This document shows, one piece after another, positions 5,874-50,858 of a stretch of DNA of 64,000 nucleotides; the first letter of the stretch is position 1; each line of letters starts with the position of its first letter. This stretch comes from Calothrix sp. PCC 7716 (GTDB lineage: Bacteria; Cyanobacteriota; Cyanobacteriia; Cyanobacteriales; Nostocaceae), in contig NZ_AP025018.1 of NCBI RefSeq assembly GCF_019977735.1, forward strand, positions 3,100,001 to 3,164,000, in the 5' to 3' direction. The notes under the pieces are model-generated. The model had not been told where the DNA came from. It worked only from the letters and a program-made list of their open reading frames with translations, and searched no databases. A program made the translations under genes and the position numbers.

Positions 5874-5890
5874 TTAACCGAGCAGTATTG
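5874..5890. repeat. Solo 17-bp terminal repeat of the MITE family seen at 42620 and 50481
   Basis: TTAACCGAGCAGTATTG matches the right end of the MITEs at 42620-42733 and 50481-50571 exactly. No left end is visible within 300 bp upstream, so this looks like a decayed copy. Confidence 0.7.
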
Positions 5891-30513: not shown

Positions 30514-32259
30514 GTGATCAACGCCTTACGGCATCTAAGGTTTAAACACTTTAATTTCAAAGGATTGGAGAACAGCGCAATAATATTGTGATCAACGCCT
30601 TACGGCATCTAAGGTTTAAACACACCTCTTTAATTGCTATAACTCTTTTAACTTAATAGTGATCAACGCCTTACGGCATCTAAGGTTTAAACACATACTC
30701 AACAAACATAGACGAAATTATAGAAACAAGTGATCAACGCCTTACGGCATCTAAGGTTTAAACACAAATCACCACCACTAGCAGAAATCACCTGATAAAG
30801 AGTGATCAACGCCTTACGGCATCTAAGGTTTAAACACTATAAAATCAGCAAAATCAGCAAAAGTAGATTCTAGTGATCAACGCCTTACGGCATCTAAGGT
30901 TTAAACACTACTTGAAACTGTGGGCATTGTTCTCCGACTCCTGGTGATCAACGCCTTACGGCATCTAAGGTTTAAACACAGCAAATAATCGACCTTTAGG
31001 CGAGCGTGAATTTTGTGATCAACGCCTTACGGCATCTAAGGTTTAAACACAACAAAAGCTATGGAGCATGTAACACCTGATAGTGATCAACGCCTTACGG
31101 CATCTAAGGTTTAAACACTCGATTCTCTGCTTATATTGTTAACAGGTTCAAGCAAGTGATCAACGCCTTACGGCATCTAAGGTTTAAACACCAGCATATT
31201 TGTAAACCCAAACTTCACAGGAAGTAAGTGATCAACGCCTTACGGCATCTAAGGTTTAAACACGAATTGAGTTGAAAGTTTTATTGATATTCCTATTAGT
31301 GATCAACGCCTTACGGCATCTAAGGTTTAAACACTGATTTAAAGAGGCTGAGGAATAGCAATCAGTTTTCGTGATCAACGCCTTACGGCATCTAAGGTTT
31401 AAACACATTCTACCGATGCTTTCGGTAGCAACGACTGTGAGGTGATCAACGCCTTACGGCATCTAAGGTTTAAACACGTGTCCTTCACACTGTCTTTTCT
31501 GGATTAGACTAAGTGATCAACGCCTTACGGCATCTAAGGTTTAAACACATAATGCTCTATGTCCTAATAAAACTATTTCACTTTGTGATCAACGCCTTAC
31601 GGCATCTAAGGTTTAAACACCAATCCTGTTTACGGTAATTGTTGTTCCGGTTATGTGATCAACGCCTTACGGCATCTAAGGTTTAAACACATCTTACACA
31701 AGATACTTTTTGATTGCTGACGTATGGTGATCAACGCCTTACGGCATCTAAGGTTTAAACACCCGTTAACTTCTTTGTAGCCTATAATCTTGAAACTCTG
31801 TGATCAACGCCTTACGGCATCTAAGGTTTAAACACTGCATTGCCGTACCAAAAGCATTGATACCGCTTGGTGATCAACGCCTTACGGCATCTAAGGTTTA
31901 AACACCTTTTGGGACGAGGAAGAGAAGGTATTAGCGTACGTGATCAACGCCTTACGGCATCTAAGGTTTAAACACCGCACGCGCGCACCTCACGCGATAG
32001 CGAAGGAATGTGATCAACGCCTTACGGCATCTAAGGTTTAAACACGATTAGGATGCGACAATACAAGACAAGCTACAATAGTGATCAACGCCTTACGGCA
32101 TCTAAGGTTTAAACACACTTAGACCCGCGCGTTAAGGGTGAAATTAACAATGTGATCAACGCCTTACGGCATCTAAGGTTTAAACACTAAACTTGGTTTG
32201 CCTTGAACTGTTCCGTTTTTCAAGTGATCAACGCCTTACGGCATCTAAGGTTTAAACAC
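30514..32259 (-). CRISPR. CRISPR array 1: 25 repeats, 24 spacers
   Basis: The 36-bp repeat reads GTGATCAACGCCTTACGGCA then TCTAAGGTTTAAACAC on the plus strand, identical in all 25 copies counted (first 30514-30549, last 32224-32259). Spacers are about 32-38 bp. The leader lies on the right, next to cas2, so the array is transcribed leftwards and the working repeat is the reverse complement, beginning GTGTTTAAACC with a CCTTA...TAAGG stem. Uniform repeats up to the far end suggest an active array. Confidence 0.98.
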
Positions 32260-32522: not shown

Positions 32523-32816
32523 TCAGATAATCAAGTAAGGCTTACCTGTATTTTCCCATGCACCTGGTCGATTATATTTGGGTATGTCTTCCAAACATCT
32601 GTTACTCAAGCGCACAAATAAAATGCTGTCTTCCTTTGCCAAAATTGTCTCTAATTCCCAACGCAGTTTTTCGCGATTGCGCTGATTAAGAATACATCGA
32701 AAAATTGAATATTGTATTCTTTCCCCATGTCCTTGTAACAAACCGTAAGCTTTGCGCCAGCGTTTCTGGTTACGAATGTCGTAGCAAATCAAGTATATAT
32801 GTTGTGCTTCACCCAT
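32523..32816 (-). CDS. cas2: Cas2
   Basis: 97 residues from ATG 32816; an upstream TTG at 32840 is possible. The first strand HIYLICYDI carries the conserved Asp, followed by RRWRKAYGLLQGHGERIQYSIF-type motifs, seen as GHGERIQYSIFRC. Cas2 forms the adaptation complex with Cas1 and measures and holds prespacers. It follows the cas4/cas1 fusion by about 30 bp and is the last gene of the operon; the leader of array 1 lies directly beyond it. Confidence 0.93.
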   Translation of the reverse strand: MGEAQHIYLICYDIRNQKRWRKAYGLLQGHGERIQYSIFRCILNQRNREKLRWELETILAKEDSILFVRLSNRCLEDIPKYNRPGAWENTGKPYLII

Positions 32817-32846
32817 GATTCTACCAATCCAAAATCTCAAATCGCT

Positions 32847-34511
32847 TTACCGTACAATCAACTGACCAAACAAACCACCTTCACCCATCCATTCTTTTTC
32901 CAACAGTCGCACTTCTAACTCCAGCAAGCGACGGTAGGTAAGTGAGTAACCTGTTGCTGGATGCTTCCAGGTTTCCTGCTTACGGTTTTCGTAAAGTTCT
33001 ACGAATTTGCGTTTACCAGTTTCGCTCAACCAAACTTGTTTCCCACGGATATCAAAATCTGCTTTCACGTCCCACTGGTTGCGGTTGACAGAAGCCATTA
33101 CGGTCATGTCTACTAAGGGAACTCGGAAAATTTCCATTAAATCTAAAGCTAATGGTGCAGCTTGAGAGCGAGGTTGATGGTAAAAACCTAATGCTGGTTC
33201 TAGTCCAACTGTTAATATTGCGTTCATCACGTCTTTGATGAGCAAAGAATAACCAAAACCTAGCATGGCGTTGAATCTATCTCTAGGTGGGCGCCGATTT
33301 CTGCTGTCGAAGAGCATTTCCCGTGGTGCGTCTGGTGAAATTAAATCGGCTAAAGCGTCAAAGTAAAGTGCCGCCAAATTTCCTTCGTACCCTAACAGCG
33401 ATTGCAAAGATTTTGCTTGGGGAACAAGTTTAAGGACAGCTTTCATTTGTTCGGTCGCTTTTGTCAATTTTTCGTTAGCTTTGGCTTTACCTTTCCCACG
33501 CATCAAGAATTTACGCTGTCCTTGCGCGCGGCAAATCACTAGTTTACGTGCCAACTCTAAGCAAGTATTGGAATCAGAAAGTGCTGTGTATTGATGAATT
33601 CGACGTTGAATACTACCTTGACGAGTATCAAAACTACCCAGATATCGCCCTCCACCGGAGATAAAATGTATACCAATTCCTTGCTCGCGGCAAAAATGTA
33701 GTGCTTGGGTAGAAATTTGTGAAAAGCTGTGCAATACTAACTGCCCTATCTGACGCGCGGGAATAATTTCTACAGGTTGGTTGCGACGGGCAATTTTGAT
33801 TTGTTCTCCAGTTCTACCAACACTAGTTCCTGGTTCGATAACGTGAATTATTTGCCTATCGTCATCTTCAGGAAATAAACGGATTGGTTGCCACTCGCGA
33901 TCATGTGCAAGTCGCGCTTCTTCGGGTAAGCATACTGGAGCAAGGGAACAACGCGCGCATAAACGTTCGTTATCGGTTACTGGTGGTCGGTGAGTAGATT
34001 GTTTAAGTTTACGTGCTGTTTCAATTGCTTGTTGTACTGCTGCACGTCCTGCATCATCAAGAGGTACGTGAACCAGTACATTATCAGCATGGTAGCGAAT
34101 GCGACCTTCTTTAATAGGTAAACCAAGGGCTGATTCGAGTAAACAGCAATAAGCAAGGATTTGTAATTTATCGCTTTCCCAGGCTTGAGGTTGTTTATTT
34201 TCATCACGGTGACACTTACCGCGTTTGTGTTCGTAGGGTATAGTTTCGCCATTGCGGGTACGCAGTGCATCAACTCGTCCGCGAATACCTAATTCTTCGC
34301 TAACAAGAAATAATTCTTCCCAGTCTTCATCTTCTTGCTTTTCCAGTTCTGCGTGTAACCTACGTCCTGCAAATACTGCAGCATCTTGTGTATAAAGTTC
34401 TTCGACTTCTTCGAGGTAAAAAAGTCGAGGACAGTAGGCAAGAGCATGAAGAGCAGAAACACGAATTGTTTCTAATTTGGTGGCAAGTTCGAGATGTTCG
34501 ATAGTTTGCAT
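32847..34511 (-). CDS. cas4-cas1: Cas4-Cas1 fusion
   Basis: 554 residues. The N-terminal 200 are Cas4: ALAYCPRLFYLE with the first Cys, YEHKRGK of the RecB nuclease fold, and CARCSLAPVC with the three iron-sulphur Cys. From about 225 on it is Cas1 with the metal-binding Glu in LLGYEGNLAALYF, His in GFYHQPRS and Asp in ALDLMEIF. Cas1 integrates spacers and Cas4 trims prespacers and helps select the PAM end. The fusion is typical of the MYXAN-type systems. A degenerate CRISPR repeat lies between this gene and cas5. Confidence 0.96.
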   Translation of the reverse strand: MQTIEHLELATKLETIRVSALHALAYCPRLFYLEEVEELYTQDAAVFAGRRLHAELEKQEDEDWEELFLVSEELGIRGRVDALRTRNGETIPYEHKRGKCHRDENKQPQAWESDKLQILAYCCLLESALGLPIKEGRIRYHADNVLVHVPLDDAGRAAVQQAIETARKLKQSTHRPPVTDNERLCARCSLAPVCLPEEARLAHDREWQPIRLFPEDDDRQIIHVIEPGTSVGRTGEQIKIARRNQPVEIIPARQIGQLVLHSFSQISTQALHFCREQGIGIHFISGGGRYLGSFDTRQGSIQRRIHQYTALSDSNTCLELARKLVICRAQGQRKFLMRGKGKAKANEKLTKATEQMKAVLKLVPQAKSLQSLLGYEGNLAALYFDALADLISPDAPREMLFDSRNRRPPRDRFNAMLGFGYSLLIKDVMNAILTVGLEPALGFYHQPRSQAAPLALDLMEIFRVPLVDMTVMASVNRNQWDVKADFDIRGKQVWLSETGKRKFVELYENRKQETWKHPATGYSLTYRRLLELEVRLLEKEWMGEGGLFGQLIVR

Positions 34512-34532
34512 ATATGTCTATAAGGTAATTGT

Positions 34533-34557
34533 TTCGGCGCCTTACGACATCTGAGGT
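34533..34557 (-). repeat. Solo degenerate CRISPR repeat between cas5 and cas4-cas1
   Basis: CGCCTTACGACATCTGAGGTT matches the centre of array 1's repeat (CGCCTTACGGCATCTAAGGTT) at 19 of 21 positions. It lies in the 55-bp gap inside the operon, so it would be present in the cas transcript. Confidence 0.7.
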
Positions 34558-34566
34558 TAATAATCA

Positions 34567-35214
34567 TTAGTTTGGTTGGATTACCGTCCAAGCGGACTGA
34601 GGAAGAACATTGTCTGATGGTTCAAGTATTAAATACCTTTTCCATCGCGTACCCTTGGAACCAACATGGTCTACCCAATAGGGTAATGTTAATAACCCAT
34701 CCTCATCTTGCACTAACCATTGCAAAGATTGACTTTGATAGTTTTCTTGCAATATTGTTACAGAATTTACTAAATCTCGGCTCTCTCCCAAGCATAAACC
34801 ACCAAAACGGTTTATAGAAGCCGGATTTACAAATGCTTGTTGTAATCGTTCTGATAATGTTGGTTGTGATTTATCTTCTTGGGAATTAATCAAAGTAATA
34901 AATCGAACATTAGTCAGTAATTCTTGATAATCAGGTCTAGCATTGGTTGGGTCATGAATGTCTTTTTTCTTAAAACGGCGAAAAGTACGAATAACCGTTG
35001 ATTTCTGAGGTTGAGTGAGAAGAGCAATCGCAATCTTCACACCACAATGTTTATATCTGTCCATTTCCCCTACAATTGACAATAACATGCCGTAAACAGT
35101 CGATGGTGGGGGTGCTAAATAAGTTTGAGCATATTCCCTTGCGCTTGATTGACGAAAGCAAGCGATGGGAACTTCAATTTCTAATGCCAAAATTTTATTG
35201 GTTGCTGTTGTCAT
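34567..35214 (-). CDS. cas5: Cas5, MYXAN type (DevS)
   Basis: 215 residues. The N-terminal ferredoxin-like fold shows ALEIEVPIACFRQSSAREYAQTY with PPPSTVYGMLLSIVG, the usual Cas5 glycine-containing turn region; a basic RTFRRFKKKD stretch and FGGLCLGESRDLVN follow. Cas5 caps the 5' handle of the crRNA in Cascade. Its start overlaps the cas7 stop by 4 bp, indicating tight translational coupling. Confidence 0.9.
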   Translation of the reverse strand: MTTATNKILALEIEVPIACFRQSSAREYAQTYLAPPPSTVYGMLLSIVGEMDRYKHCGVKIAIALLTQPQKSTVIRTFRRFKKKDIHDPTNARPDYQELLTNVRFITLINSQEDKSQPTLSERLQQAFVNPASINRFGGLCLGESRDLVNSVTILQENYQSQSLQWLVQDEDGLLTLPYWVDHVGSKGTRWKRYLILEPSDNVLPQSAWTVIQPN

Positions 35215-36137
35215 CGGCTTAACTCTAATTGTGGCAATTTTAAATCTCTGGCAATCACTTGTTTAATACCTTGTACAGATGATTTTATTCCAGAAAAAAT
35301 ATGAACTCCACTATCTTTAAGTTTTTTTACTTCCTCAGATTCTGTGACGGCGCCAGCTATCCATAATTCTTGGGGATCAATATCCTGGTTTTTGACTTTT
35401 CTAATTAATCCTCCGATTGATATTTCTCTTTCATTCTCTTCAAAACAGTACAAGATACGAGGTGAAAAATCATGTGTCCATCTTAAAACTAAACTTTCAG
35501 GAGAAAAATCATAGAGAAAGCGTGAATGATTACCTGCAACTTCTCCCAAGGAATTTAAACCATCTAATACAGCCAGAATGCGAGATTTTTCTTTTAGTCT
35601 TTCTGGAGTTAGCGCAAACCCGTATTGATAAGAAGTTGCATGAACTTCTGTACCATAAAGTGAAGTTCTACTTTTTTTACCGCTTGCAGCATTAAAGGTT
35701 AAATCTCCACTAAAAGGTGTTGTGGAAATAGCACGAGTTACTTCTAAAACCCCTCGTTTTGCTGTTGTACTACCTTTAGGTGCAGCAGCTTTTTTGCCTT
35801 TTACTTTTGGTTCATCAGATGCTTCTGCTTTCGCAGCTTCCGCACGCATAAAACCTAAAACATCATCATCAATAAAAATCGTATCATCAAAATTTTCATT
35901 CTGCCAAATATTATCATTAGCATCATCATCCCAACGACGATTTACTTGATAGCTATTACCACAGGTTTGCCAATAATAACGTAATGCCCAGCGAATCGCT
36001 TCTGCGGAAACAGTTGTATGTACCTCTCCCTTCCAGAGAATTTTTTGAAGAGTAGTAATATTTCCTTCGTTTTCTCCTCTATTGTTTGCAGCAGTACCGT
36101 AACTAGTCAAGATGTTCCCAAATAAATGAAATGACAC
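35211..36137 (-). CDS. cas7: Cas7, MYXAN type (DevR)
   Basis: 308 residues from GTG 36137, chosen because AAAGGAG lies at proper spacing and the protein then starts like DevR (HLFGNILTSYGTAANNRGEN, then EGNITTLQKILWKGEVHTT); a longer frame opens upstream at 36206. The conserved RWALRYYWQ and the later ALTPERLKEKSRIL, DGLNSLGEVAGNHSRF are family features. Cas7 forms the crRNA-binding backbone of the interference complex. A lysine-rich insert (KVKGKKAAAPKG) lies in the middle. Confidence 0.92.
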   Translation of the reverse strand: MSFHLFGNILTSYGTAANNRGENEGNITTLQKILWKGEVHTTVSAEAIRWALRYYWQTCGNSYQVNRRWDDDANDNIWQNENFDDTIFIDDDVLGFMRAEAAKAEASDEPKVKGKKAAAPKGSTTAKRGVLEVTRAISTTPFSGDLTFNAASGKKSRTSLYGTEVHATSYQYGFALTPERLKEKSRILAVLDGLNSLGEVAGNHSRFLYDFSPESLVLRWTHDFSPRILYCFEENEREISIGGLIRKVKNQDIDPQELWIAGAVTESEEVKKLKDSGVHIFSGIKSSVQGIKQVIARDLKLPQLELSR

Positions 36138-36211
36138 TTTACAATCTCCTTTTAAAAATTGAAATGCTTGCTTGTAGTAGCGCTTTAGTACTTTGCTTGG
36201 TAACAAGAGGA

Positions 36212-37765
36212 TTAAATGCCAATATCAATAATACTTTCATCAGAAGCATTCTCATTAGCATTACTATCTTGGTTTAAATTTCCCTTGTCTTTATTAAAAT
36301 CTCCCTTACCTTTATAACTAGCTAATGCCAGCAAAGCTAAATCTCTAGACTTCTTCCAATTTTTTTCTAACATGACAAAATCGATCAATTCTTCCCAATG
36401 TTCCTGTAAAGTTGGTATTTTTCCCGCTCTTGACCAAAAATCAGTAATAAATTCTCGAAATGTTTCAGAATTCTTACATCGACCTAAACCGGTTCTAATA
36501 CGCACTGTCTCTCGATCAAAATTGGGTGATTCCCCTCTTTTAGTTGCCACGTCTGAGATTCTTCCGAAAGTATAATTAATAGCTTCATGGCAAGCTTTAA
36601 CGAATAGTTTTTCTCGTTCATCTGATTGAATTTTTTGAATCACGTGATATAGTCCTCCCCTTTCATAAGCTAACTTTTGGAAAAGCTCATTACTATTTAC
36701 TTTATCCGAAATTCCAGAATACCAAGGCAGATTTTTGGCTAAGTTCTCAGCAATTAATTCCTTTGCAAAGCTTGTAGCAACAAATCCCCCATCTTTACCC
36801 GCAATCGCTTTATCTTTTAACCAGTCATCACAAACTTGATAGTTATGACAAACTTCGTCGGTTACTTCTACTATATACAAATCTGTACGGGTTTTTTGTT
36901 GGGTTGACCATGCAACAGTTCCTAATGTCAAAACTTGGCAGCGCTGTACACCAAAAATTTGAGTAATGTTTACGGTTGCATCCAAAGTCAAAAATCTTAA
37001 ACCAGCATCACCCAAACCAGAAGCATGAAAGTCTTTATAAATTGCATTTCTTAGATTTTGATTTTGACGATACTGAGCATATTTTTCTAAATCAGTTATT
37101 TCTGGAATCACCAAAGCGTATTGCGCCTGTTTGTCTCGTAACTTAGATTTCAGGATGTAGTAATAACAGGCAACAGGTGCAAATAATAAGACGAAAGCAT
37201 TTTCTGAGAGTTCTTCAAAACTTGTATCAGAACTAAAAGCAACATGTTTTACTGCTGCACCAGGATTTAACCAACCCGCAACACTAATAGGTTTTGTTGA
37301 TAGTTTCCCGTTTCTATCACATAAATTACCAGCAAACTCTTGATAAACATAGTTTTGTAGACTTTTATATTTTACTTGAATTTCTGGTTCATTTTCGCCT
37401 AAAGATAAAGATTTTGTTACAACTCCATCAGATTTATGAGTACTAGTATGTTGTAAAAGCGTTCCTAAAATACCTTGATGTACTATTATCTGTGCATCTT
37501 CACGCATGGATTGCGAATCTAACCCACGTAATGCGATAATACCATTATTTAATTGAAAAGACTCTTTGAGTAACCATTCCAAAACATCTTGATCATTTCC
37601 ATCACAGCTTAATTTTACTTGGCGGGGACTTCGTTGCCAATTTAATCCCAATGGTACTTCTACTTTTTCTTTTTCTAATTGCTTTAAAGTCATCCATAAC
37701 CCAGCTAAACCAGCACGATGCAGCAAGGTAAAACTAGGATTACCCAAATCTAATTCTAGATTCAC
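36212..37765 (-). CDS. cas8: Cas8-type large subunit, Cmx8
   Basis: 517 residues, overlapping the cas3 stop by 4 bp. It begins NLELDLGNPSFTLLHRAGLAGLWMTL, given here as LDLGNPSFTLLHRAGLAGLW, the opening of the Cmx8/Csx13-type large subunit of MYXAN systems. Later parts contain GGLYHVIQKI and an asparagine-rich acidic tail. The large subunit normally recognises the PAM and recruits Cas3. Sequence conservation in this family is low, so the assignment rests on the N-terminus and on position between cas3 and cas7. Confidence 0.85.
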   Translation of the reverse strand: MNLELDLGNPSFTLLHRAGLAGLWMTLKQLEKEKVEVPLGLNWQRSPRQVKLSCDGNDQDVLEWLLKESFQLNNGIIALRGLDSQSMREDAQIIVHQGILGTLLQHTSTHKSDGVVTKSLSLGENEPEIQVKYKSLQNYVYQEFAGNLCDRNGKLSTKPISVAGWLNPGAAVKHVAFSSDTSFEELSENAFVLLFAPVACYYYILKSKLRDKQAQYALVIPEITDLEKYAQYRQNQNLRNAIYKDFHASGLGDAGLRFLTLDATVNITQIFGVQRCQVLTLGTVAWSTQQKTRTDLYIVEVTDEVCHNYQVCDDWLKDKAIAGKDGGFVATSFAKELIAENLAKNLPWYSGISDKVNSNELFQKLAYERGGLYHVIQKIQSDEREKLFVKACHEAINYTFGRISDVATKRGESPNFDRETVRIRTGLGRCKNSETFREFITDFWSRAGKIPTLQEHWEELIDFVMLEKNWKKSRDLALLALASYKGKGDFNKDKGNLNQDSNANENASDESIIDIGI

Positions 37766-40182
37766 TGTTCTGCTCCTACCTCTTCACTGTAGCGAATTCT
37801 ACCTTCTGGCGCCACAGGATAAAATCCTCTGCGTTTCCATGTATAATAATCATTTTCAATGCGGATAGGTACTGTCCATTTCTGTGCTTCTTGCTTAAAT
37901 AACTTCATACGCGATTCTTTTTTGCCTTGTTTAAGTAACTCTTGTTCTTTCTGTTCAGCAATCTTCCAAATTTCTTTTTCATCTTCGCCCAGAATTATAG
38001 TAATTGTGTATCCTGCTTCTCGTAAGGAATTTTGATACGTACACCAATTATCTTCCAACCAATTTGATTTCACTTCCTTAACTACTTCAGTATTAAGATT
38101 TGCCGCTAATTCTGCTAAATCTCGCTGAGAAATACCTATTTTACCAGAAAATTCTTGAATTAGTTTCTTGCCAGTTGAAATTTCAGCTTGATCATATGGT
38201 TTTGAATTATCCCAAGGATAAACAATTGCGAGTTTTGCTCCTTCTTCTATTGTTGTCATTCTACGGTTTAGCCTTCCCAAACGTTGAATTAAAGCACTTG
38301 CAGGCGCCATTGCGGATATTAATAAATCAGCACTTAAATCTAGAGACATTTCACAGACTTGGGTAGTAATTGCCAAAACAGGTGCTTCTTGTTTGAATCC
38401 TTCAATTACAGCTTGATGTTTTTTCAACCTATCTTTATAACGGAAACGACTATGATAAATTAATGGGCTGATACCTAGTTCTGGTAACTGTTCGATAAGT
38501 TTTATTTGTGCTGTGCGGTATATTTCAATACAATTTTTAACAGAATTTGTTACCCATAAAACTTTTTGTTTGTTTCTCAAAGCTGTAATCACAGGTACCC
38601 AAATTTCTGTTAATTCTTCCAAATTATTGATTTCAGAAATATAGGTAATCGAATAGCGCGGTAATTCTTCCAATTCTTTTGGTCCTTCAATAGGCTCTTC
38701 TAAATCTTCTCCCTGTTCTGCTAACACTTGACGTATAGCTGCTAACTGTTCGGGAGTAAAACTAGCACTCATTAATAGAATTGGCGCCCCTCGAAAAGCT
38801 TTAATAAACTTTAATAATGCTCCAAACAGGCTTTTGTCATAGGCATGGACTTCATCAAAAACAAAAGCAGATTGTGCTAATGGCGCCCATGAGTAAAGGG
38901 GTTTACGATTATTTTGAATTAAGCCTAACACTGAATCAACTGTACAGACAATTAATTTTTTTCGCCAAGCTTGAAAAGCCATTAATCGAGAATCAATTCC
39001 TTCAGAATCATCAGAATCGCCAGAAAAGAGTAATTCCCTATCTAAATCTGCACGTGAATGCATTAAAGCGGCTTCAATTTCCGTACCATGTGCATAGTCG
39101 ATATAACCCTGAGTTGCCGTTCCTGTAGTTGGATAGGAAAAAAATAATTTACGTCCAACAGCCCATTTTTTCCCCCAAGCATAAGCTCCTACAGTTTTAC
39201 CAGTTCCACAACCTGCTTTCACAAGTGTTACCCGACGCTTGGACGAAGCAATTAACTCTTGAAATGGTCGTAGTTTCTTACCATCCAGACGTTGATTGAC
39301 TAGTTTTTGTAATTCTTCTTCTGAAAGTAATAGAGACAGTACTTCTTCTATCCACTCTTTAAAATCTTCTTCCGCTAAAGGAGGTGCAGAACCAGCTAAA
39401 TCTGCTGCAATTACCGTTGCTTTAACTGCTGCTACAAACTTCTGCTGTTCCCAGTCTAATTGTGATTCAAATTGAATGAATTCATCACGTAATTTGTTCA
39501 AAGTTTCTTTTAATTGCTTTTTCGTCCAGTTCTCGCTTGGCGCCTCTGGTAACTTCTCTGGTAATCCCAAGGCTTGACTACCCATTTTTAAAACTGCTTG
39601 GAAATCAGAATGACGGGTATAAATTTTTAATTGGTCTCCTGTACCAGAAACAAATTCAGCTATCAAACCCGATGGTTTACCATCTTTACCTACCCCAACT
39701 TTTAAATGATGCCCCATTGCAGCCCAAACTGCAATTATCAGATTTGCATTTGAACATTGTTCAAGCCATTCTCGAAAGCTAGGTACTTGTAACGCTAAAA
39801 TACCGCTAATCACTTCATGACGTAGTATTTGCCTGTCTGAATGTGCTTTTGAAGATGCAGCAATCCTCTTTCTATAATCTTGAATTTTTACATCTGGTGA
39901 TTTTGGGTCGATGGTTTTTAAGTAAAGCATTTCCTGAAAATGTTGATTAGCTTTACCCCAATCATGTAAATATGCACTTAATCTTACTGTGGTTGCGAAA
40001 AAACTCAAATCAATATGCTCTAAACCCAATTGTCTGAGAATTGACATACCTACTTTGTCTACTAAAACATCAGCAGCTTGCATAACAAAACTGATGTGAC
40101 CAGTATATTTTGCTGCTCCTTTGATTTTGGGGTCATTCTGCTCTTGAACAGATAATGATTTAGCAAGTAAAGTTTTAAACAT
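37762..40182 (-). CDS. cas3: Cas3 helicase-nuclease with N-terminal HD domain
   Basis: 806 residues from ATG 40182, which has GGAGGT in front; a longer frame reaches 40275. The HD nuclease domain has LSAYLHDWGKANQHF near residue 70. Helicase motifs are KAGCGTGKTVGAY (Walker A), FVFDEVHAYD (DEVH), LMSASFTPEQ (motif III) and RLGRLNRR (motif VI). Cas3 is recruited by Cascade to unwind and cut target DNA. It overlaps cas6 by 8 bp. All visible catalytic motifs are intact. Confidence 0.95.
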   Translation of the reverse strand: MFKTLLAKSLSVQEQNDPKIKGAAKYTGHISFVMQAADVLVDKVGMSILRQLGLEHIDLSFFATTVRLSAYLHDWGKANQHFQEMLYLKTIDPKSPDVKIQDYRKRIAASSKAHSDRQILRHEVISGILALQVPSFREWLEQCSNANLIIAVWAAMGHHLKVGVGKDGKPSGLIAEFVSGTGDQLKIYTRHSDFQAVLKMGSQALGLPEKLPEAPSENWTKKQLKETLNKLRDEFIQFESQLDWEQQKFVAAVKATVIAADLAGSAPPLAEEDFKEWIEEVLSLLLSEEELQKLVNQRLDGKKLRPFQELIASSKRRVTLVKAGCGTGKTVGAYAWGKKWAVGRKLFFSYPTTGTATQGYIDYAHGTEIEAALMHSRADLDRELLFSGDSDDSEGIDSRLMAFQAWRKKLIVCTVDSVLGLIQNNRKPLYSWAPLAQSAFVFDEVHAYDKSLFGALLKFIKAFRGAPILLMSASFTPEQLAAIRQVLAEQGEDLEEPIEGPKELEELPRYSITYISEINNLEELTEIWVPVITALRNKQKVLWVTNSVKNCIEIYRTAQIKLIEQLPELGISPLIYHSRFRYKDRLKKHQAVIEGFKQEAPVLAITTQVCEMSLDLSADLLISAMAPASALIQRLGRLNRRMTTIEEGAKLAIVYPWDNSKPYDQAEISTGKKLIQEFSGKIGISQRDLAELAANLNTEVVKEVKSNWLEDNWCTYQNSLREAGYTITIILGEDEKEIWKIAEQKEQELLKQGKKESRMKLFKQEAQKWTVPIRIENDYYTWKRRGFYPVAPEGRIRYSEEVGAEQ

Positions 40183-40840
40183 TCTTACCTCCTCGATACG
40201 GGAGAAAATATCCACAACCAAGGTGTCTTTTACCACCAATTCCCCACTGCTGTAGTTTAAGAGAATCTTCCTCATTTAAACCAGAAACTTCTGTTGTAAA
40301 ACCAACTACCGTGTACCGCTTGACCTTAATTGTTTTACGACAGAATTCACCCCGTTTATCTTTGGGAATCGAAACTTGAGCGGAAATTTTTAAATCATCA
40401 AGCTGACGTTGTGCTGCCACTAAAAAAGATTCAGGTTCGCTGTATCCCTTAATTACAACAATTCTGGAATTGAGTTTACTTGCTGGTTTTAATGTAAATA
40501 TTTCAGGTATACCAATTTGAATATCATGTATTCCCAAACGAATTGACTTTCCAGCAAACTTATAAACCAAGGGTATTAATGGAATTGGTACGCGAATTCG
40601 TAAACAAGACTGTTCGGTAAGAATTATTTTCCCTTGCTTATCGGGAAAACCAGGAATTGTCAAAATACTGAGAGTATCTTGCTGACGTATTTCTGGATTA
40701 AGGTACACGCACGCAGCAAAAAGCGCGTACCCATGATCCGCAGGTAAATATTTTCCTCGCACTGGAAAACATAACTCAACGAATGGCTCAAGTCCACTAC
40801 CTGTATATTGAGACGCAGAAAAACCGACAGATGCGACCAT
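40175..40840 (-). CDS. cas6: Cas6 crRNA-processing endonuclease, MYXAN type
   Basis: 221 residues. The start VELCFPVRGKYLPADHGYALFAA and the glycine-rich C-terminal loop QWGIGGKRHLGCGYFLP mark Cas6; a His in the first part (ADHGYAL) is a possible catalytic residue. Cas6 cuts within CRISPR repeats to release crRNAs. It is the first gene of the operon; the promoter should lie in the 740 bp up to array 2, where degenerate repeats also occur. Confidence 0.9.
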   Translation of the reverse strand: MVASVGFSASQYTGSGLEPFVELCFPVRGKYLPADHGYALFAACVYLNPEIRQQDTLSILTIPGFPDKQGKIILTEQSCLRIRVPIPLIPLVYKFAGKSIRLGIHDIQIGIPEIFTLKPASKLNSRIVVIKGYSEPESFLVAAQRQLDDLKISAQVSIPKDKRGEFCRKTIKVKRYTVVGFTTEVSGLNEEDSLKLQQWGIGGKRHLGCGYFLPYRGGKNV

Positions 40841-40897: not shown

Positions 40898-41330
40898 TTC
40901 AAAACCTTTACGGCATCTGAGGTGAGACACGACGCTTACTTGCATTAGCTTTGCCATAGCCAAGCTTGCCGCATTTAACACGTCATCTTCAAAGTGAAAT
41001 CAAATTATATTTTTCAGCTTGAGCGAGCTTTTACTTTATAAACTCGAAACATCTGAGTAAAATAATTGTATGCATACTAACTCTAGCCTGTCAAGCTTTT
41101 TATTAAAATTATTCATCGCCTGACGGCATCATAGGTTAGGAGCAAGAAGGGTAATATTAAGCCCATCCGCCCTGTATCACTTGCAGCTTCTACACTTTTT
41201 AGACACGAAAGTGATCAACGCCAAACAGTCGCTTTACTCAAAGCTAACGGCATCAGAGTTTTTAAAATACAGAATAATCATAACTTAAAATCGATTTGGT
41301 TTTCTCTGCTGAAAACTGCAAGCACCTCTG
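40898..41330 (-). repeat. Vestigial leftward array: degenerate repeats and leader motif in front of cas6
   Basis: Three repeat-like sequences in array 1 orientation: CTTTACGGCATCTGAGGTG at about 40904-40925, ATCGCCTGACGGCATCATAGG at about 41113-41132 (one base longer when extended), and a copy split by a 22-bp insert at 41211-41266 (GTGATCAACGCC ... AACGGCATCAGAG). To the right, AGGTGCTTGCAGTT reads leftwards at 41314-41327, 48 bp from the split repeat, close to the 41-42 bp seen in the intact leaders. This looks like a decayed leader-array remnant or a kept regulatory RNA. Confidence 0.65.
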
Positions 41331-41394
41331 TTTGTGAAACCCAGTTTAAAAATAAAAGTAGTCGCAAGTCTTACCTAACAGGCGTTTGAACTAG

Positions 41395-41578
41395 ACAAAA
41401 TTAGTTTGAGGTGCTTGCAAAATACTTGAATTACTTATATTGTATAAGTTGTAGCAATTATAAAAGTCGTGTAAAAGTGCAGTCTCAACCCTTTTTTAGG
41501 CTCACGGTTGTGTCTTTGCCAGAGGTGCTTGTAAAATTGCTTAGGGAAGTACTCAGGGCAAGAATTTCCAAGGACAGC
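41395..41578 (+). promoter_or_regulatory. Leader of CRISPR array 2
   Basis: Carries AGGTGCTTGCAAAAT (41409-41423) and AGGTGCTTGTAAAAT (41523-41537), 114 bp apart, the second 41 bp before the first repeat. It mirrors the leader of array 1 and is divergent from the cas operon. Confidence 0.78.
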
Positions 41579-43450
41579 ATGTTTTAACCTTAGATACCGT
41601 CAGGTGTTGATCAGCTACTCCATCCATCATTTTCTTTAAAGAAAGTTTATGTTTTAACCTTAGATACCGTCAGGTGTTGATCAGTCAAATTTTGGATAGC
41701 GCAGGTGCCTTGCCAAGAGGATGTTTTAACCTTAGATACCGTCAGGTGTTGATCAGTGATGGTACATACAACTTTGACCAAACTGGGAGACATGTTTTAA
41801 CCTTAGATACCGTCAGGTGTTGATCAGTAAACTGTTTGATATCTTACCTGCGAGGTTATATAAAATGTTTTAACCTTAGATACCGTCAGGTGTTGATCAG
41901 AAAGAAAAACAAAACAAAGCAAAAAGAGTGAAAAATGTTTTAACCTTAGATACCGTCAGGTGTTGATCAGTAGGCGTCAAGGCATACAAACTCTTGCCGT
42001 TTGTATGTTTTAACCTTAGATACCGTCAGGTGTTGATCAGAATTCCCGTTTGGATTTTTCTTCGGTTCTCCCGTTTATGTTTTAACCTTAGATACCGTCA
42101 GGTGTTGATCAGTCGGATATGCTTCTATAAAGGTTGCTATTAATTGTTATGTTTTAACCTTAGATACCGTCAGGTGTTGATCAGAGCTACAACCGCATCA
42201 AAGAAGTGCTTACAGAATACATGTTTTAACCTTAGATACCGTCAGGTGTTGATCAGTTATAAGTTTGCTCAACATCACCTTCGTCAGTGTAGATGTTTTA
42301 ACCTTAGATACCGTCAGGTGTTGATCAGGAATACCATTTTAAGAATAAAAAGACTTCTTTTTATGTTTTAACCTTAGATACCGTCAGGTGTTGATCAGGG
42401 AACAAACTTTTTAACCCAGATATCACAGCTATAAATGTTTTAACCTTAGATACCGTCAGGTGTTGATCAGGCCAATGTAAGTAAAATAATATTGACGCAT
42501 AAGTATGTTTTAACCTTAGATACCGTCAGGTGTTGATCAGTCCTGTTTCTGGCATTGCAGAAAAGTTTCCTTTTGATGTTTTAACCTTAGATACCGTCAG
42601 GTGTTGATCAGATTCTTCTCAATACTGCTCGGTTAAGGCAATTGCGAAACGTGAAACTCCGCTCAGAGACGTGATTATTAAGAGCGGGACACTACGTGAA
42701 CACGTCTCTACATACGTTAACCGAGCAGTATTGAGATTCTTCTTCCTCTATCGTTGGTTGTCCTACTTTTATGTTTTAACCTTAGATACCGTCAGGTGTT
42801 GATCAGGATTAGGACAGAATAGCTGTGAGCAACTTAATAAATATGTTTTAACCTTAGATACCGTCAGGTGTTGATCAGGTTGTGATGGATGGAGTTAATA
42901 CGTTTCGGAAAGTCATGTTTTAACCTTAGATACCGTCAGGTGTTGATCAGTTTCCAAATGGTTGGCGCCAGGAAGTGGTGAATGATGTTTTAACCTTAGA
43001 TACCGTCAGGTGTTGATCAGGAATCCCTACAAAAGTGGATTGAGTTGTAATACTAATGTTTTAACCTTAGATACCGTCAGGTGTTGATCAGTTGAGCGCG
43101 CGCTCGTTGGTTCAGCCAGTTTTTGATGTTTTAACCTTAGATACCGTCAGGTGTTGATCAGGAAGAAAACAAGCCTAAATATGCATGGGCTTGCGACAAT
43201 GTTTTAACCTTAGATACCGTCAGGTGTTGATCAGACAAATATATAGTGTGGGGTGAGGATGCACGCGCTGATGTTTTAACCTTAGATACCGTCAGGTGTT
43301 GATCACATAAAGATTATGAATATTTAGTTAAAAATACTGAATATGTTTTAACCTTAGATACCGTCAGGTGTTGATCACAGAACCATTCTTAATACCTCTG
43401 TTTGTAAAACCAAGATGTTTTAACCTTAGATACCGTCAGGTGTTGATCAC
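41579..43450 (+). CRISPR. CRISPR array 2: 25 repeats, one spacer interrupted by a MITE
   Basis: The 36-bp repeat begins ATGTTTTAACCTTAGATACC and ends GTCAGGTGTTGATCAG. First copy 41579-41614, last 43415-43450. It matches the reverse complement of the array 1 repeat at 30 of 36 positions. Transcription is rightwards from the leader at 41395-41578. The last three repeats end in C instead of G, as in array 1, consistent with being the oldest. The spacer between 42576-42611 and 42771-42806 is enlarged to 159 bp by an inserted MITE; the other spacers are about 34-37 bp. Confidence 0.98.
42620..42733. mobile_element. 114-bp MITE inserted in a CRISPR spacer
   Basis: Terminal inverted repeats CAATACTGCTCGGTTAA (42620-42636) and TTAACCGAGCAGTATTG (42717-42733). 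The 10-bp direct repeat AGATTCTTCT flanks it (42610-42619 and 42734-42743). Removing the element and one copy leaves a normal 35-bp spacer. The interior has an AGAGACGTG/CACGTCTCT inverted pair related to the TGTAGAGACG palindromes. No transposase; a second copy with its own 10-bp duplication is at 50481-50571. Confidence 0.92.
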
Positions 43451-43701
43451 GTTATAAATATTTTAATCTTTAATGAAAGTAGTAGCTGTAATGCTGCTCA
43501 CTACTGTTTAACAACTATCAATTTGATTTACTACCAACTCCTAACTCTAAAAATTTAGTCTTCAAGTCTTCTTCACTTTCTCCGCAGTAATAATATTTCT
43601 GTTCTAGTAAATTGCTTAAGTAATAGCCATGCTTCCAAATAAAAAATATACAAAATTTTTTTGTAGGGTGGGCATCTTGCTTGACCTATGTATTAAATAG
43701 A
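43451..43701 (-). other. Region between array 2 and merR with a possible gene fragment
   Basis: The minus strand has an open stretch ending at a TGA at 43518-43520 (LSNLLEQKYYYCGESEEDL), without a start codon in frame. It may be the tail of a lost gene; no family recognised. The rest is AT-rich. Confidence 0.3.
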
Positions 43702-44115
43702 TTAATTTTTCTCAATAATTGGGCAAATTGTTTGCTGTGAGTTATCTGTCACCGCTTCCCATCCTGAAAGAAGTTCTTCTAACTCCTGTTTAAACATTAA
43801 AAGCTCTTGAATTTGCTTATCAATAGCTATCACCTTATTTTGGAGTCTAGCTTTTATATCATTGCAGGGTAAATTACCTTGGTCATGAACTGCTAAAAAA
43901 TCCTTAATTTCTGATAAACTTAACCCAAGGCTTTGCGCCCGTTTAATAAAATGTAAGCGAGATAAAACATCAGAGTCGAACAATCTAAACCCACCTTCTG
44001 TTCTACCTATGGCTTTGAGCAAGCCTAATTCTTCGTAGTAACGGATTGTTTTGATTGGTACACCACTTTCTTTGGCAACGGCGCCTATTTGTTTTGTATT
44101 TTCTTGCAGTAACAT
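43702..44115 (-). CDS. MerR-family metal-responsive regulator
   Basis: 137 residues. The N-terminal winged helix-turn-helix reads IGAVAKESGVPIKTIRYYEE, then GLLKAIGRTEGGFRLFD. A long dimerisation helix follows. Cysteines in LPCNDIK (about residue 82) and in TICPII near the C-terminus are placed as in metal-sensing MerR proteins (CueR, ZntR, PbrR groups). The metal cannot be fixed from sequence; the nearby copZ-copA operon carries a MerR-type promoter at 49384-49415 and is the likely target. An IS200/IS605 element now separates regulator and operon. Confidence 0.88.
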   Translation of the reverse strand: MLLQENTKQIGAVAKESGVPIKTIRYYEELGLLKAIGRTEGGFRLFDSDVLSRLHFIKRAQSLGLSLSEIKDFLAVHDQGNLPCNDIKARLQNKVIAIDKQIQELLMFKQELEELLSGWEAVTDNSQQTICPIIEKN

Positions 44116-44254: not shown

Positions 44255-45784
44255 TTAGGCTGTTTCGTCTCTACACAGTTTGGCTCTGCGGGGGAAATGA
44301 CACCACCGAGCGAACGAACTAGTCTTCGCACTCGCCATTTTAAACTCACTCCACGCCTGTGTTAAGAACGGCTCCGTCCTTTCCCAATCTCTACGAGCTT
44401 GAGACACGTTGAGTTCATCGTTATCATTAATGAATCTAGCCAGATAAGCACTGAACAAATCTCTATGCATCTCAAAACCAGAAACATCTTTATGCACTCT
44501 TTCCGATAAAGATTTTTTGATTCTGGTTCCATCAAGATGCGTTTGAGATAACGCTGTTTTCTGGGTAGAAAATGTTGTGAATTGCCCACCAGCACTTTCA
44601 GCCTTGCGAGCTAATTCAGATTGGAAAAAACTTGGTGACGTGTTTGATATTGCTTTACCGTAACGGCGTTGCCAAGCCTTTACTGACACTTTCTCAGCTT
44701 TAATATTATTTCCAAATTCACGAAATATTTTATTCGCTAAACCTCGGTTTTGAGACTTAGCGTAGACGGCTTTACGTCTTTCTAATTCGCGCTTTTTTCG
44801 TGCATATTTTTTATAAGCACTACTTTGTTTCCAGCGTCGGGAGCCTTTTTTAACTTTACCTTTTTTGCGTTTATTACTACGCCCAGCTTTTTTCTCAAAA
44901 TCTGGTTCATAGTTTTCTGGATTGGTTGCACGACGCGACCGCTCCATCTTACGTTGTAAGGTTTTAATTTCTTGCTCAAAGGTTGGAACGTTTTCTGCAA
45001 ATGGAAATAAACCTGCTTTGTTGTCACCAACTACTGCAACGTTACTTACGTTTAAATCAATACCGACTAAGCCAGTATTAGAATTAACTTTGTTATGTAA
45101 TTTATAAGCTGGTGTTTCTTTATAAGGTATACCTTCGTTGATAAGTTGTACATACCAGCGACGTTTACCGTTTATTTCTCGCCACAAAATACGACAGTAT
45201 TTAACTGGTGAGCGATACCCGTATTCAAGTACCTCATTCCATTTGTCGGGGAACCTAATTGGAAGTACTAAATTTGACCCCCATTTTATATAGCAATCAG
45301 TACTACCAAAAAACCTTATTCCAGATGCGTTCGTTTTACCTTCTAAAGAATGAAATGCTATTATACTTTTAAATCTTACTTTTCTCGCTTTACCAAATAA
45401 TACACGCTCTGCGGCTTTAAATGCGCGTGTTCCTATTTTTTGAATTGTATGCGAATCTAATTTCTCTACAATCCACTTTGCATTTTTGGCTGTTATAGTC
45501 GCAAATTCCTGCAACTCGAAGTCAGAAAAGCGTGATTGCTTCCGTGCGGTTGAAAATAACTCATTCCTTAATTTCTTATCTTCCTCAGTTTTAACTTTTA
45601 ACTTTTTCGCTTCTTGATATGGCTCTGCCTTACGCACTTGTTGTACGCGAACCATCGCCTCACCTAGTACCGCATTATATAGCTGTCTGCCAGCTTCAAA
45701 TCTAGCATCTAGCTCTTTTTCTGAAGAACTTGTTATTATTAACTCAAATTCGGTAACAAACGATGGCTTTTTAACTCTCGCCAT
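44255..45784 (-). CDS. tnpB: TnpB-family RNA-guided nuclease, zinc finger lost
   Basis: 509 residues from ATG 45784, preceded by AAGGAGGTG; the frame also opens at 45829. RuvC motifs are present: Asp in VGIDLNVSNVAVVG, Glu in IKAEKVSVKAW and Asp in MHRDLFSAYLARF. The place of the usual CxxC...CxxC zinc finger reads LSQTHLDGTRIKKSLSERVH without any cysteine. The length exceeds the usual 400 or so residues because of a basic Lys/Arg-rich insert (KKGSRRWKQSSAYKKYARKK). TnpB cuts DNA guided by an RNA from the element's right end and helps keep the element in place. It lies between a CRISPR array and a copper operon. Confidence 0.85.
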   Translation of the reverse strand: MARVKKPSFVTEFELIITSSSEKELDARFEAGRQLYNAVLGEAMVRVQQVRKAEPYQEAKKLKVKTEEDKKLRNELFSTARKQSRFSDFELQEFATITAKNAKWIVEKLDSHTIQKIGTRAFKAAERVLFGKARKVRFKSIIAFHSLEGKTNASGIRFFGSTDCYIKWGSNLVLPIRFPDKWNEVLEYGYRSPVKYCRILWREINGKRRWYVQLINEGIPYKETPAYKLHNKVNSNTGLVGIDLNVSNVAVVGDNKAGLFPFAENVPTFEQEIKTLQRKMERSRRATNPENYEPDFEKKAGRSNKRKKGKVKKGSRRWKQSSAYKKYARKKRELERRKAVYAKSQNRGLANKIFREFGNNIKAEKVSVKAWQRRYGKAISNTSPSFFQSELARKAESAGGQFTTFSTQKTALSQTHLDGTRIKKSLSERVHKDVSGFEMHRDLFSAYLARFINDNDELNVSQARRDWERTEPFLTQAWSEFKMASAKTSSFARWCHFPRRAKLCRDETA

Positions 45785-45875
45785 ATCACTCACCTCCTTG
45801 AACTGTTGTTGTATTTGATTTGCTATCAAATCTAATATTATATGAAACAGTTGTCAAGAAGTTTTGTAGCCTAAG

Positions 45876-46721: not shown

Positions 46722-49040
46722 CTATGCAATTAGTTTGGGTCGGAAGTTACGTAGACGCAATGCGTTTGTTAATACTGATACTGAACTGAACGCCATCGCG
46801 GCGCCTGCAATAATTGGGTTAAGCAACCAGCCGAAAATAGGAAAGAGAATACCAGCAGCAATTGGAATTCCTGCTACGTTGTAAATGAAGGCAAAGAATA
46901 AATTTTGACGAATGTTGCGAATTGTTGCATGGCTAAGTTGAATTGCTGTTACTACACCTTGTAAATCTCCAGAGATAAGTGTGATGTCACTAGCAGCAAT
47001 TGCTACATCTGTTCCTGTACCAATGGCTATACCCACATCAGCTTGAGCTAGTGCTGGGGCATCATTAATACCATCACCCACCATTGCAACAATTTTTCCT
47101 TCGCTTTGTAATTTTTTTACAGTGTCAGCTTTTTGGTCGGGTCGAACTTCTGCTAAAACATGTTTGATACCAACTTCTTTGGCAATAGTTTCTGCGGTAC
47201 GGCGATTGTCTCCTGTAAGCATTACTACTTCTAAACCCAATTTTTGCAATGATTTTATTGCTTGGGTGGAAGTAGGTTTGACGGCATCAGAAATACCCAT
47301 TAGTCCTTCGATTTTACTATCTACTGCAATATAAATTGCTGTTTTACCGAGGTATTCTAAGCGTTCTTTTTGTTGTTGCAATGCTTGTGTGTTTATATTT
47401 AACTCTGACATCCAGCGTTGTGTACCAATTTGTACTAATTGATTATCAATAATACCTTGTACACCGCTACCTGGTATTGATTCAAAATTGTTTACCTGTT
47501 GTTGGCGCCGTTGTTGTAGAGACGTTACATGTAACGTCCCTACATTTACATTATTGTTATTGTCTACATTTTGGGTTTGGGCGTATCTAACTACTGCTTC
47601 GGCTAAAGGGTGTTCTGAGTTGCGTTCGAGTGATGCTGCTAATTGTAATAATTTAATTTCATTAGCGTTTGCGGTTCCATTAGTGGTAATAAAATCTGTA
47701 ACTGTAGGTTTGCCTTGGGTGATAGTTCCAGTTTTATCTAGGACAATTGTTTTGATTTTGTGCGCTAGTTCTAAACTCTCGGCGCCTTTAATCAAAATAC
47801 CGTTTTCTGCGCCTTTACCCGTTCCTACCATTACTGATGTTGGAGTAGCTAAACCTAATGCACAAGGACAAGCGATAATTAAGACTCCTACTGTGGTAAT
47901 TAAAGCAAGGGTCAAATTACCCATGATATTAAACCAAATTATGAAAGTAAGCAGCGCAATTGCAATTACTACAGGCACGAAAAATCCTGTTACAGAGTCA
48001 GCTAATCTTTGGATAGGCGCCCTACTACCTTGAGCTTGCTGCACAAGCTGGACAATTTGTGCCAACACGGTATCTTTTCCTACTCGTGTTGCTTTAAACT
48101 TAAAGCTACCAGTTTTGTTGATGGTGGCGCCAATTACTTCATCACCTGGTTGTTTTTTCACTGCTACACTTTCACCAGTCACCATAGATTCATCAATAGT
48201 CGATGTGCCATCAACTACTTCACCATCAACAGGAATTTTCTCACCGGGACGAACTAAGATTACATCCCCAATTTGCACCTCTTCAATAGGAATATCAATT
48301 TCTTGTCCGTCACGAATTAAACGCGCGGTTTTTGCTTGTAAACCAATTAATTTACGGATAGCTTCGCCAGTTTGTTTTTTCGCACGGCTTTCTAAGAGTC
48401 TTCCCAATAATATCAAAGCAATAATAACAGAGGAAGCTTCATAATATACGTCGGGTCGTAAACCTTGAGATATAAAAAAGTTTGGAAAAAACGTAGGAAA
48501 TAGCGAATAAATAAATGCCGTACTTGTGCCTAATGCAACAAGAGTATCCATAGTTGCCGCATGGCGCTTAAAAGCTTTCCACGCATTACTATAGAAAGAT
48601 AAGCCGCACCAAAATTGAATGGGAATTGTTAGCACTAGTTGTAGCCAAGGGTCATGTAACCACATAGGGATGAAAGGTATGTGTAATCCTGTCATCATTG
48701 GTATAGAACCAATAACAATTATCCCACTGAGAATACCTGCAACAACTACTTTGCGGGTTAGTTCATTAGTTTCTCTTGATTGTCTACGTTTCTCAGCCTC
48801 ATCCTGTTGTGCAACTGGATTTTGTTCTTGTAATGGGTAAGCCGAATAACCAGCTTCATCTACAGCTTGTTGGATAGCTGTTACATCTGTTTTTCTAGGG
48901 TCATATTCTACTGTCGCTAGTTCGGCGCCATAATTCACAACACATTCCGAAACACCATTTACAGAACTAATTGCCTCCTCAACACCTCGCGCGCAAGAAG
49001 CACAACTCATACCACCCAACTTTAAAGTCGCATTTTCCAT
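46722..49040 (-). CDS. copA: Copper-translocating P1B-type ATPase
   Basis: 772 residues from ATG 49040, chosen because the metal-binding domain starts there and the upstream extension to 49157 is made of a tandem repeat. An HMA domain ([16 protein letters not shown]) comes first. Eight membrane helices with CPC in [15 protein letters not shown], the phosphorylation site [11 protein letters not shown] motif [10 protein letters not shown], and hinge [10 protein letters not shown] are present. The motifs fit copper(I) export (CopA/CtaA/PacS group). A TGTAGAGACG-family palindrome is inserted in frame within the nucleotide-binding domain (47515-47544), giving [12 protein letters not shown]. Confidence 0.94.
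47515..47544. repeat. 30-bp palindrome inserted in frame in copA
   Basis: TGTAGAGACGTTACATG followed by TAACGTCCCTACA; same family as 731-760 with one arm change. It adds ten residues to the N-domain of CopA, near a Gln/Asn-rich loop (NNNNVNV ... QQRRQQQ). Confidence 0.85.
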
Positions 49041-49075
49041 ATATTCTTTCTTCATCAAAATCTTATGGGATAACC

Positions 49076-49150
49076 CGGAATGTGGAGTGGGCATTAAAAT
49101 CTTGTGGAGTGGGCATCCAAATCTTGTGGAGTGGGCATCCTTGCCCGCCC
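49076..49150. repeat. Three tandem copies of a GTGGAGTGGGCAT unit between copZ and copA
   Basis: Units of about 23 bp (ATCTTGTGGAGTGGGCAT plus a short linker) repeat three times and end in a GGGCATCCTTGCCCGCCC hairpin. The open frame upstream of the real copA start runs through this repeat. Confidence 0.75.
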
Positions 49151-49160
49151 ACACCAAACA

Positions 49161-50424: not shown

Positions 50425-50858
50425 TCTTTTTCGGCGCCTACAGGAGGAGATGTAAAAATTTTATTAAATAGAAGTGACTACAATACTGCTCGGTTAAGCT
50501 TTTTTCGGCATGATAAACAACGATATTATAAGGGTTTCAGCCTACGTTATCTCCTTAACCGAGCAGTATTGGAAGTGACTATTATGCTGTAACTAAAGTT
50601 CAAGATACAGGTATTGGTATTCCACTTCAGGAACTTCCTCACATTTATGACCGCTTTTACCGTGTTTCGAGTGACCGTTCTCGCAGCACTGGTGGTTCAG
50701 GTTTAGGTTTATCTATTGTTCAGGCTATAGTTAGTGTACATAAAGGAAAGCTAAATGTAGAAAGTGAATTGTGTAAGGGTACCACTTTTACAGTTCAATT
50801 ACCTTTGGATAATACCAATTTTAAGAACAAAAGTTCTATTTCTTTATTCAAAGGTTAA
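50425..50858 (+). pseudogene. Histidine kinase C-terminal remnant interrupted by a MITE
   Basis: The left part reads TGGDVKILLNRSDY, then the MITE at 50481-50571, then YAVTKVQDTGIGIP, IYDRFYRVSSDRSRST, GGSGLGLSIVQAIV and a stop at 50856-50858. Deleting the MITE and one 10-bp repeat rejoins the frame. Only the HATPase domain is left: kinase and sensor parts are missing upstream, so the gene was already broken. Confidence 0.8.
50481..50571. mobile_element. 91-bp MITE with 10-bp target duplication
   Basis: Same 17-bp inverted ends as 42620-42733 (CAATACTGCTCGGTTAA). GAAGTGACTA flanks it on both sides (50471-50480 and 50572-50581). The interior differs from the other copy, so only the ends are conserved. 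Confidence 0.92.

Follow-up and report, generated by a model that had tools for sequence, protein, structure and literature searches.

The insertion of a 114-bp element into unit 15 of a CRISPR array is a real event and an unusually clear one. Very probably, the element is a non-autonomous MITE that a resident IS4-type transposase moved to the junction of repeat 15 with spacer 15, with silencing of spacer 15 alone as the outcome. The insertion has the look of a clean, naturally occurring knock-out that affects a single spacer and leaves the CRISPR system complete in other respects. A simple rule also emerges, according to which a target duplication that overlaps the end of a repeat leaves the adjacent spacer whole and removes its handle.

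Insertion anatomy and CRISPR context

The analysed stretch of 64,000 nucleotides (the window, C1:3100001-3164000) belongs to a genome of 12.37 Mb in 10 contigs, and the contig that carries it comprises 11.4 Mb. The features relevant to the insertion are as follows, with positions referring to the window.

30514..32259, minus strand: second CRISPR array, 25 repeats found (GTGTTTAAACCTTAGATGCCGTAAGGCGTTGATCAC), related repeat, without abnormal gap
32523..32840, minus strand: cas2
32847..34511, minus strand: cas4-cas1 fusion
34567..35214, minus strand: cas5b
35211..36206, minus strand: cas7 (Cst2/DevR), without Pfam match
36212..37765, minus strand: cas8 (Cas8a1/Csx13, MYXAN type), TIGR03485 and TIGR03486 above cut-off, without Pfam match
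37762..40275, minus strand: cas3
40175..40840, minus strand: cas6 (PF09559; PADLOC Cas6b)
41579..43450, plus strand: CRISPR array, 25 repeats of 36 nt (ATGTTTTAACCTTAGATACCGTCAGGTGTTGATCAG; the last three end in C) and 24 spacers
42576..42611, plus strand: repeat 15, intact, upstream of the interrupted spacer
42610..42619, plus strand: target duplication, left copy AGATTCTTCT, two bases of repeat 15 and eight spacer bases
42612..42619, plus strand: spacer stub of 8 nt attached to repeat 15
42620..42733, no strand assigned: MITE with 17-bp perfect terminal inverted repeats, its ends identical to those of a resident 2184-bp IS of the IS4 family
42734..42743, plus strand: target duplication, right copy
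42736..42770, plus strand: spacer 15, complete 35-nt copy, preceded by the MITE end and not by a repeat
42771..42806, plus strand: repeat 16, intact, downstream of the interrupted spacer

All seven cas genes have open reading frames and family matches. Their arrangement as a cas6-cas3-cas8-cas7-cas5-cas4/1-cas2 operon (32523-40840, minus strand) adjoining the array is that of a type I-B system with a MYXAN-type Cas8. Among the repeats of the array, 22 end in G and the three right-most ones in C, which is the only base change and is expected of an old array end. A congener has a conserved counterpart of the left flank (80% over 41030-41310), and a second locus of the same genome shows 76% likeness to 41315-41613. 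Together, the conserved left flank and the variant repeats at the right end make left-to-right transcription of the array probable. An Rfam search of positions 41000-44000 yielded 26 matches to one CRISPR-repeat family, all below the gathering score, of which 25 coincide with the repeats and the remaining one lies on the minus strand (41211-41269); nothing was found at the MITE. The last spacer (spacer 24) matches at 43394-43411 the leader-side flank of its array (41324-41341) at 17 of 18 bases (ACCTCTGTTTGT[A/G]AAACC). Close to the array, a TnpB-like protein of 524 aa is encoded at 44255-45829 (NF040570 at 66.9 bits, below the cut-off of 100; without Pfam match), and its gene is flanked by those of a MerR-type regulator (43702-44115) and a heavy-metal ATPase (46722-49157).

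The element itself occupies positions 42620-42733. It starts with CAATACTGCTCGGTTAA and ends with 17 bases exactly reverse-complementary to this start, resulting in perfect 17-bp terminal inverted repeats, with AGATTCTTCT flanking the element on each side (42610-42619 and 42734-42743). Since the duplication begins with AGA and ends with TCT, a perfect inverted repeat of 20 bp can be read as well (42617-42636/42717-42736); unambiguous copies fix the borders at 114 bp plus 10 bp, for example the one at G000:C1:942133, which has GGTGCCGTTG on both sides. The initial annotation had given the length of the element, its inverted ends and the duplicated flanks correctly to the base. It had also placed the last two bases of the repeat within the 10-bp duplication, which is borne out by the sequence: AGATTCTTCT begins two bases inside repeat 15 and thus consists of the last 2 bases of this repeat and the first 8 of spacer 15. 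Chance can be ruled out as the origin of the element, since the counts of the terminal 17-mer lie far above expectation and above the reversed control. Allowing up to 3 mismatches, it occurs five times in the window against 0.22 occurrences expected, and with up to 2 mismatches the genome contains 95 occurrences, compared with 2 of the reversed control.

The spacer had been described as split by the element, and its identity as lost unless the RNA is still processed. Neither view can be maintained in this form. Because the duplication begins at the end of the repeat, spacer 15 survives in full: to the right of the element, AG is followed by all 35 nt of the spacer, after which repeat 16 begins, and the repeat side keeps a stub of just 8 nt. 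The original length of 35 nt was stated correctly, and the spacer is present as such at 42736-42770 with nothing to reconstruct. Its sequence is kept in the DNA, and the part that is lost is the upstream repeat junction, which corresponds to the 5' handle of the crRNA. Just upstream of the intact copy the sequence reads CAGTATTGAG; upstream of a normal spacer it reads TTGATCAG.

Two explanations that dispense with a transposition into the array were weighed against these data. Repeated sequences commonly cause assembly errors, and the join might accordingly be an artefact or a chimera. Such an artefact is unlikely, indeed very improbable, because the closest full-length copy (at C1:942133) is only 84% identical among the 40 of 104 first-look candidates that were scored, so that no identical copy was seen among them, and because the contig extends over 11.4 Mb; furthermore, the join carries a perfect duplication of the length that is typical of the family. 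The capture by the array of an over-long spacer already carrying the element is scarcely credible. No point in its favour was found, the two repeat bases within the duplication would then be a mere coincidence, and the 159 nt of unit 15 stand against 34-37 nt in all other 23 spacers.

Parent insertion sequence and family of short elements

The reading of the element as a MITE, proposed in the initial annotation, is supported by an IS4-family insertion sequence of the same genome whose 17-bp ends are identical and whose target duplication likewise measures 10 bp. Five pairs of ends bound this 2184-bp element, which is 100% identical in all five cases. It encodes, in an open reading frame, an IS4-family transposase of 469 aa (PF13006 and PF01609 above cut-off; NF033592 at 184.3 bits against a cut-off of 115) and, on the opposite strand, a protein of 126 aa for which no Pfam or NCBIfam match was obtained at E 0.001. 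A search of the genome for the transposase returned the five IS copies and one fragment (residues 1-53, 66%, C1:10118005). The left-most 19 nt and the right-most 17 nt of the MITE are identical to the IS; no common stretch of more than 10 nt was found between the interior of the MITE and the 2184-bp IS.

The likeness of the five IS copies extends over about 4.8 kb (99.6-100% identity) and takes in a second transposase-like gene of 453 aa. All five full-length copies (L061-L065, L133-L137) sit within this one repeat of ~4.8 kb, and the 453-aa protein is Tn5/IS50-like by eye. The 2184-bp IS seems to spread as a passenger of another IS. The five copies likewise show the 10-bp target duplication, and they represent one insertion event because they are carried inside the larger repeat. 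Target duplications in the IS4 family range from about 9 to 13 bp, and the 10 bp of the parent IS, counted as one event, fall within this range.

Independent support for the 10-bp duplication consequently comes from the short elements. A subset of the 95 end occurrences was examined, comprising 42 places (40 fetched and two in the window). These included 5 full IS copies and 21 short two-ended elements of 67-357 bp, one of which (L100) has a diverged left end and was placed by hand, and the remaining 16 were dropped as they lacked a recognisable pair of ends. Among the short elements, the 10-bp duplication was perfect in 10/21, matched at 9 of 10 bases in 4/21 and at 8 bases or fewer in 7/21. 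In a control with mispaired left and right flanks, 0 of 420 combinations reached at least 8 of 10 bases. The interiors of the short elements fall into several unrelated types, and the same end, with at most 1 mismatch, is present in 7/7 genomes of the genus, own genome included.

The element in unit 15 thus combines the properties of a MITE: it is short, lacks a transposase gene, has perfect ends and shares these ends and the duplication length with an autonomous IS of the same genome. It also belongs to a multi-copy group, as represented by the 21 short two-ended elements; among the 40 of 104 candidates scored, only one further full-length copy, at 84%, shares its interior well. A cyanobacterial IS4-type MITE family thereby gains a parent element and a 10-bp duplication. 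A second MITE of the window, with the same ends and 91 bp in length, is located at 50481-50571 and has the perfect duplication GAAGTGACTA. To its right lies, by eye, a sequence resembling a histidine kinase ATPase domain, and a gene may be interrupted there. A lone right end of the family is present at 5874-5890, followed by GCATCCATCT, without a recognisable left end.

Predicted consequences for the guide RNA and immunity

We propose that the resident IS4-family transposase mobilised the MITE in trans and that a 10-bp staggered cut at the boundary of repeat 15 and spacer 15 gave rise to the target duplication. As no empty site was found among the 217 family genomes or in genome_contigs, the order of these events is deduced from the duplication alone. 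In type I systems, cleavage by Cas6 takes place inside the repeat, about 8 nt of which stay on the guide as its 5' handle. Cas6 would presumably still cut the intact flanking repeats 15 and 16, and the guide derived from unit 15 would then contain a spacer part of 159 nt that begins with 8 nt of the former spacer and continues through the MITE hairpin into the full former spacer. Such a guide would not be expected to recognise the original target, and the other 23 spacers should remain usable. The complete spacer past the MITE would be inert because it has no repeat-derived handle, which is not to be expected where CAGTATTGAG precedes the spacer in place of TTGATCAG. Most likely, just spacer 15 is silenced and one immunity of 24 is lost.

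RNA folding is consistent with this arrangement. The 232-nt segment from repeat to repeat was predicted to form hairpins in both repeats and to place the MITE in a hairpin of its own (-71.1 kcal/mol, z -3.9, with 1 of 200 shuffled sequences folding as well). The MITE RNA folds far better than shuffled sequences on either strand (z -5.5 and -7.7, 0/200 as good). The hairpin of a repeat alone is weak (z -0.7), with 49 of 200 shuffles folding as well, and the fold therefore says little about cutting by Cas6.

The stability of the MITE hairpin raises the question whether it stops or weakens transcription, with the nine downstream spacers being silenced as well. The RNA hairpin is very stable and is followed by a T-rich stretch, which fits this idea, but a long run of T after the hairpin is missing. 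A terminator scan that allowed loops of 3-8 bases, a setting under which the MITE is undetectable, reported only one site (42966-42980) where 1.6 are expected from shuffled sequences. Altogether, we regard this wider effect as rather unlikely.

Another idea can be added to the silencing of spacer 15 without excluding it, namely that the MITE acts as a reversible off-switch. The duplication spans the repeat-spacer junction, so that a complete spacer without handle is stored, and precise excision between the 10-bp copies would restore the spacer, and with it one immunity, in some cells. Precise excision by slippage is established for other IS and Tn elements. The perfect duplication, the complete spacer copy and the perfect 20-bp stem, which is predicted to form a stable DNA hairpin (-29.6 kcal/mol, z -6.6), are all compatible with such a switch. 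However, a hairpin and a duplication are expected from any MITE insertion, the sequence of the empty site was not found in the family genomes or in genome_contigs, and there is no sign of selection for a switch, which makes this role quite improbable.

A 27-nt stretch of the intact spacer was detected, with up to 3 mismatches, in 1 of 217 genomes of the family, which was its own, and no empty site was found among them. A 20-nt core of the intact spacer gave no exact match in viral_contigs or genome_contigs, and the array as a whole had no match among the phages. Three plasmid records showed matches of 67-73% identity at the end of the array, across its last repeats and spacers, and are tentatively regarded as relatives of the repeats.

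Occurrence in other arrays and comparison with known systems

The same repeat family was surveyed in the window and in four fetched stretches, covering 259 repeats in eight array groups with 13 abnormal gaps. Inserted elements were seen in 2 of these gaps, that is, the MITE of unit 15 and a different MITE-like element in the congener G004. The five large gaps, which range from 541 to 6846 nt, were treated as intervals that divide distinct arrays, gaps of 45, 59 and 60 nt were left out, and those of 108, 110 and 111 nt contain, by eye, a degenerate or partial repeat. The element of G004 (L132:11477-11629) has the ends GGGAGCATCCC...GGGATGCTCCC and lies inside a degenerate CRISPR array, with a near-full-length relative of 74% identity in G004 and partial ones in G000. 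A flush target duplication was not found at its borders, where the two flanking GTTTTTA copies are out of register by one base.

A family-wide search was performed with a pattern composed of a repeat-like end, up to 30 nt and an exact MITE end, which detects only insertions near the end of a repeat. It produced 73 matches in 44 of 217 genomes. Among the 42 matches examined, CRISPR-like periodicity was present in three, namely those of the window, L171 and L172, and a similar pattern in genome_contigs was restricted to 1 stretch, the same as L172. No excess of MITE ends near repeats over chance is claimed. The two additional cases, from G193 (L171) and G195 (L172) of the same family, resemble the insertion described here in that array-side MITEs with an identical left 17-bp end (2 mismatches at the right end) are flanked by perfect 10-bp duplications, ACATCCATCC and AAACAGATAT, respectively. 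In contrast to unit 15, both are situated beyond the final repeat of the fetched stretch, a degenerate one, and interrupt no bounded spacer.

The initial annotation had called non-autonomous elements inside arrays rarely described. This is a fair statement, but the same kind of event is already on record, in Haloquadratum walsbyi HBSQ001 (PMC3119063) and, by a citing sentence, in Microcystis (PMC11448079), and a MITE in an array spacer is not new as such. The relevant parts of a study on MITEs and CRISPR in Sulfolobus islandicus contain no spacer-borne MITE (PMC3718332), those of PMC3542288, PMC7515739 and PMC3733652 contain nothing on MITEs in arrays, and the MITE end used as a text query of the literature gave no match. 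A complete spacer that has become handle-less through the duplication is not described in the passages on these precedents. Programs that read arrays between repeats will report one false long spacer at such a site, since the spacer survives without handle beyond the insert.

Insertions of IS elements into CRISPR loci are well known, for instance that of IS6110 in M. tuberculosis (PMC9241810). According to the passages on the CRISPR (DR) locus of the M. tuberculosis complex, insertion at the border of repeat and spacer hides spacers from typing, as would be the case here; unlike the MITE, IS6110 is a full IS that inserts inside the repeats near their ends, with a preferential site being described (PMC9241810). 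Mobile elements also disable CRISPR immunity by insertion into cas genes, as outlined in the part of PMC10359306 that also mentions IS insertion in a CRISPR locus. In those cases the cas genes are hit, whereas one spacer only is affected here.

Two of the precedents concern MITEs. In Microcystis, MITEs are present in cyanobacterial CRISPR sequences according to the citing sentence in PMC11448079, the source for this statement, which refers to Kuno et al. 2012. In H. walsbyi HBSQ001, the MITE HqIRS37 lies within one CRISPR spacer, and the ancestral spacer was recognised once the insert was disregarded, as set out in the corresponding passage of PMC3119063. HBSQ001 is an archaeon without cas genes whose CRISPR is described there as non-functional (PMC3119063), whereas the insertion in unit 15 is found in a cyanobacterium with seven open cas genes and 23 regular spacers.
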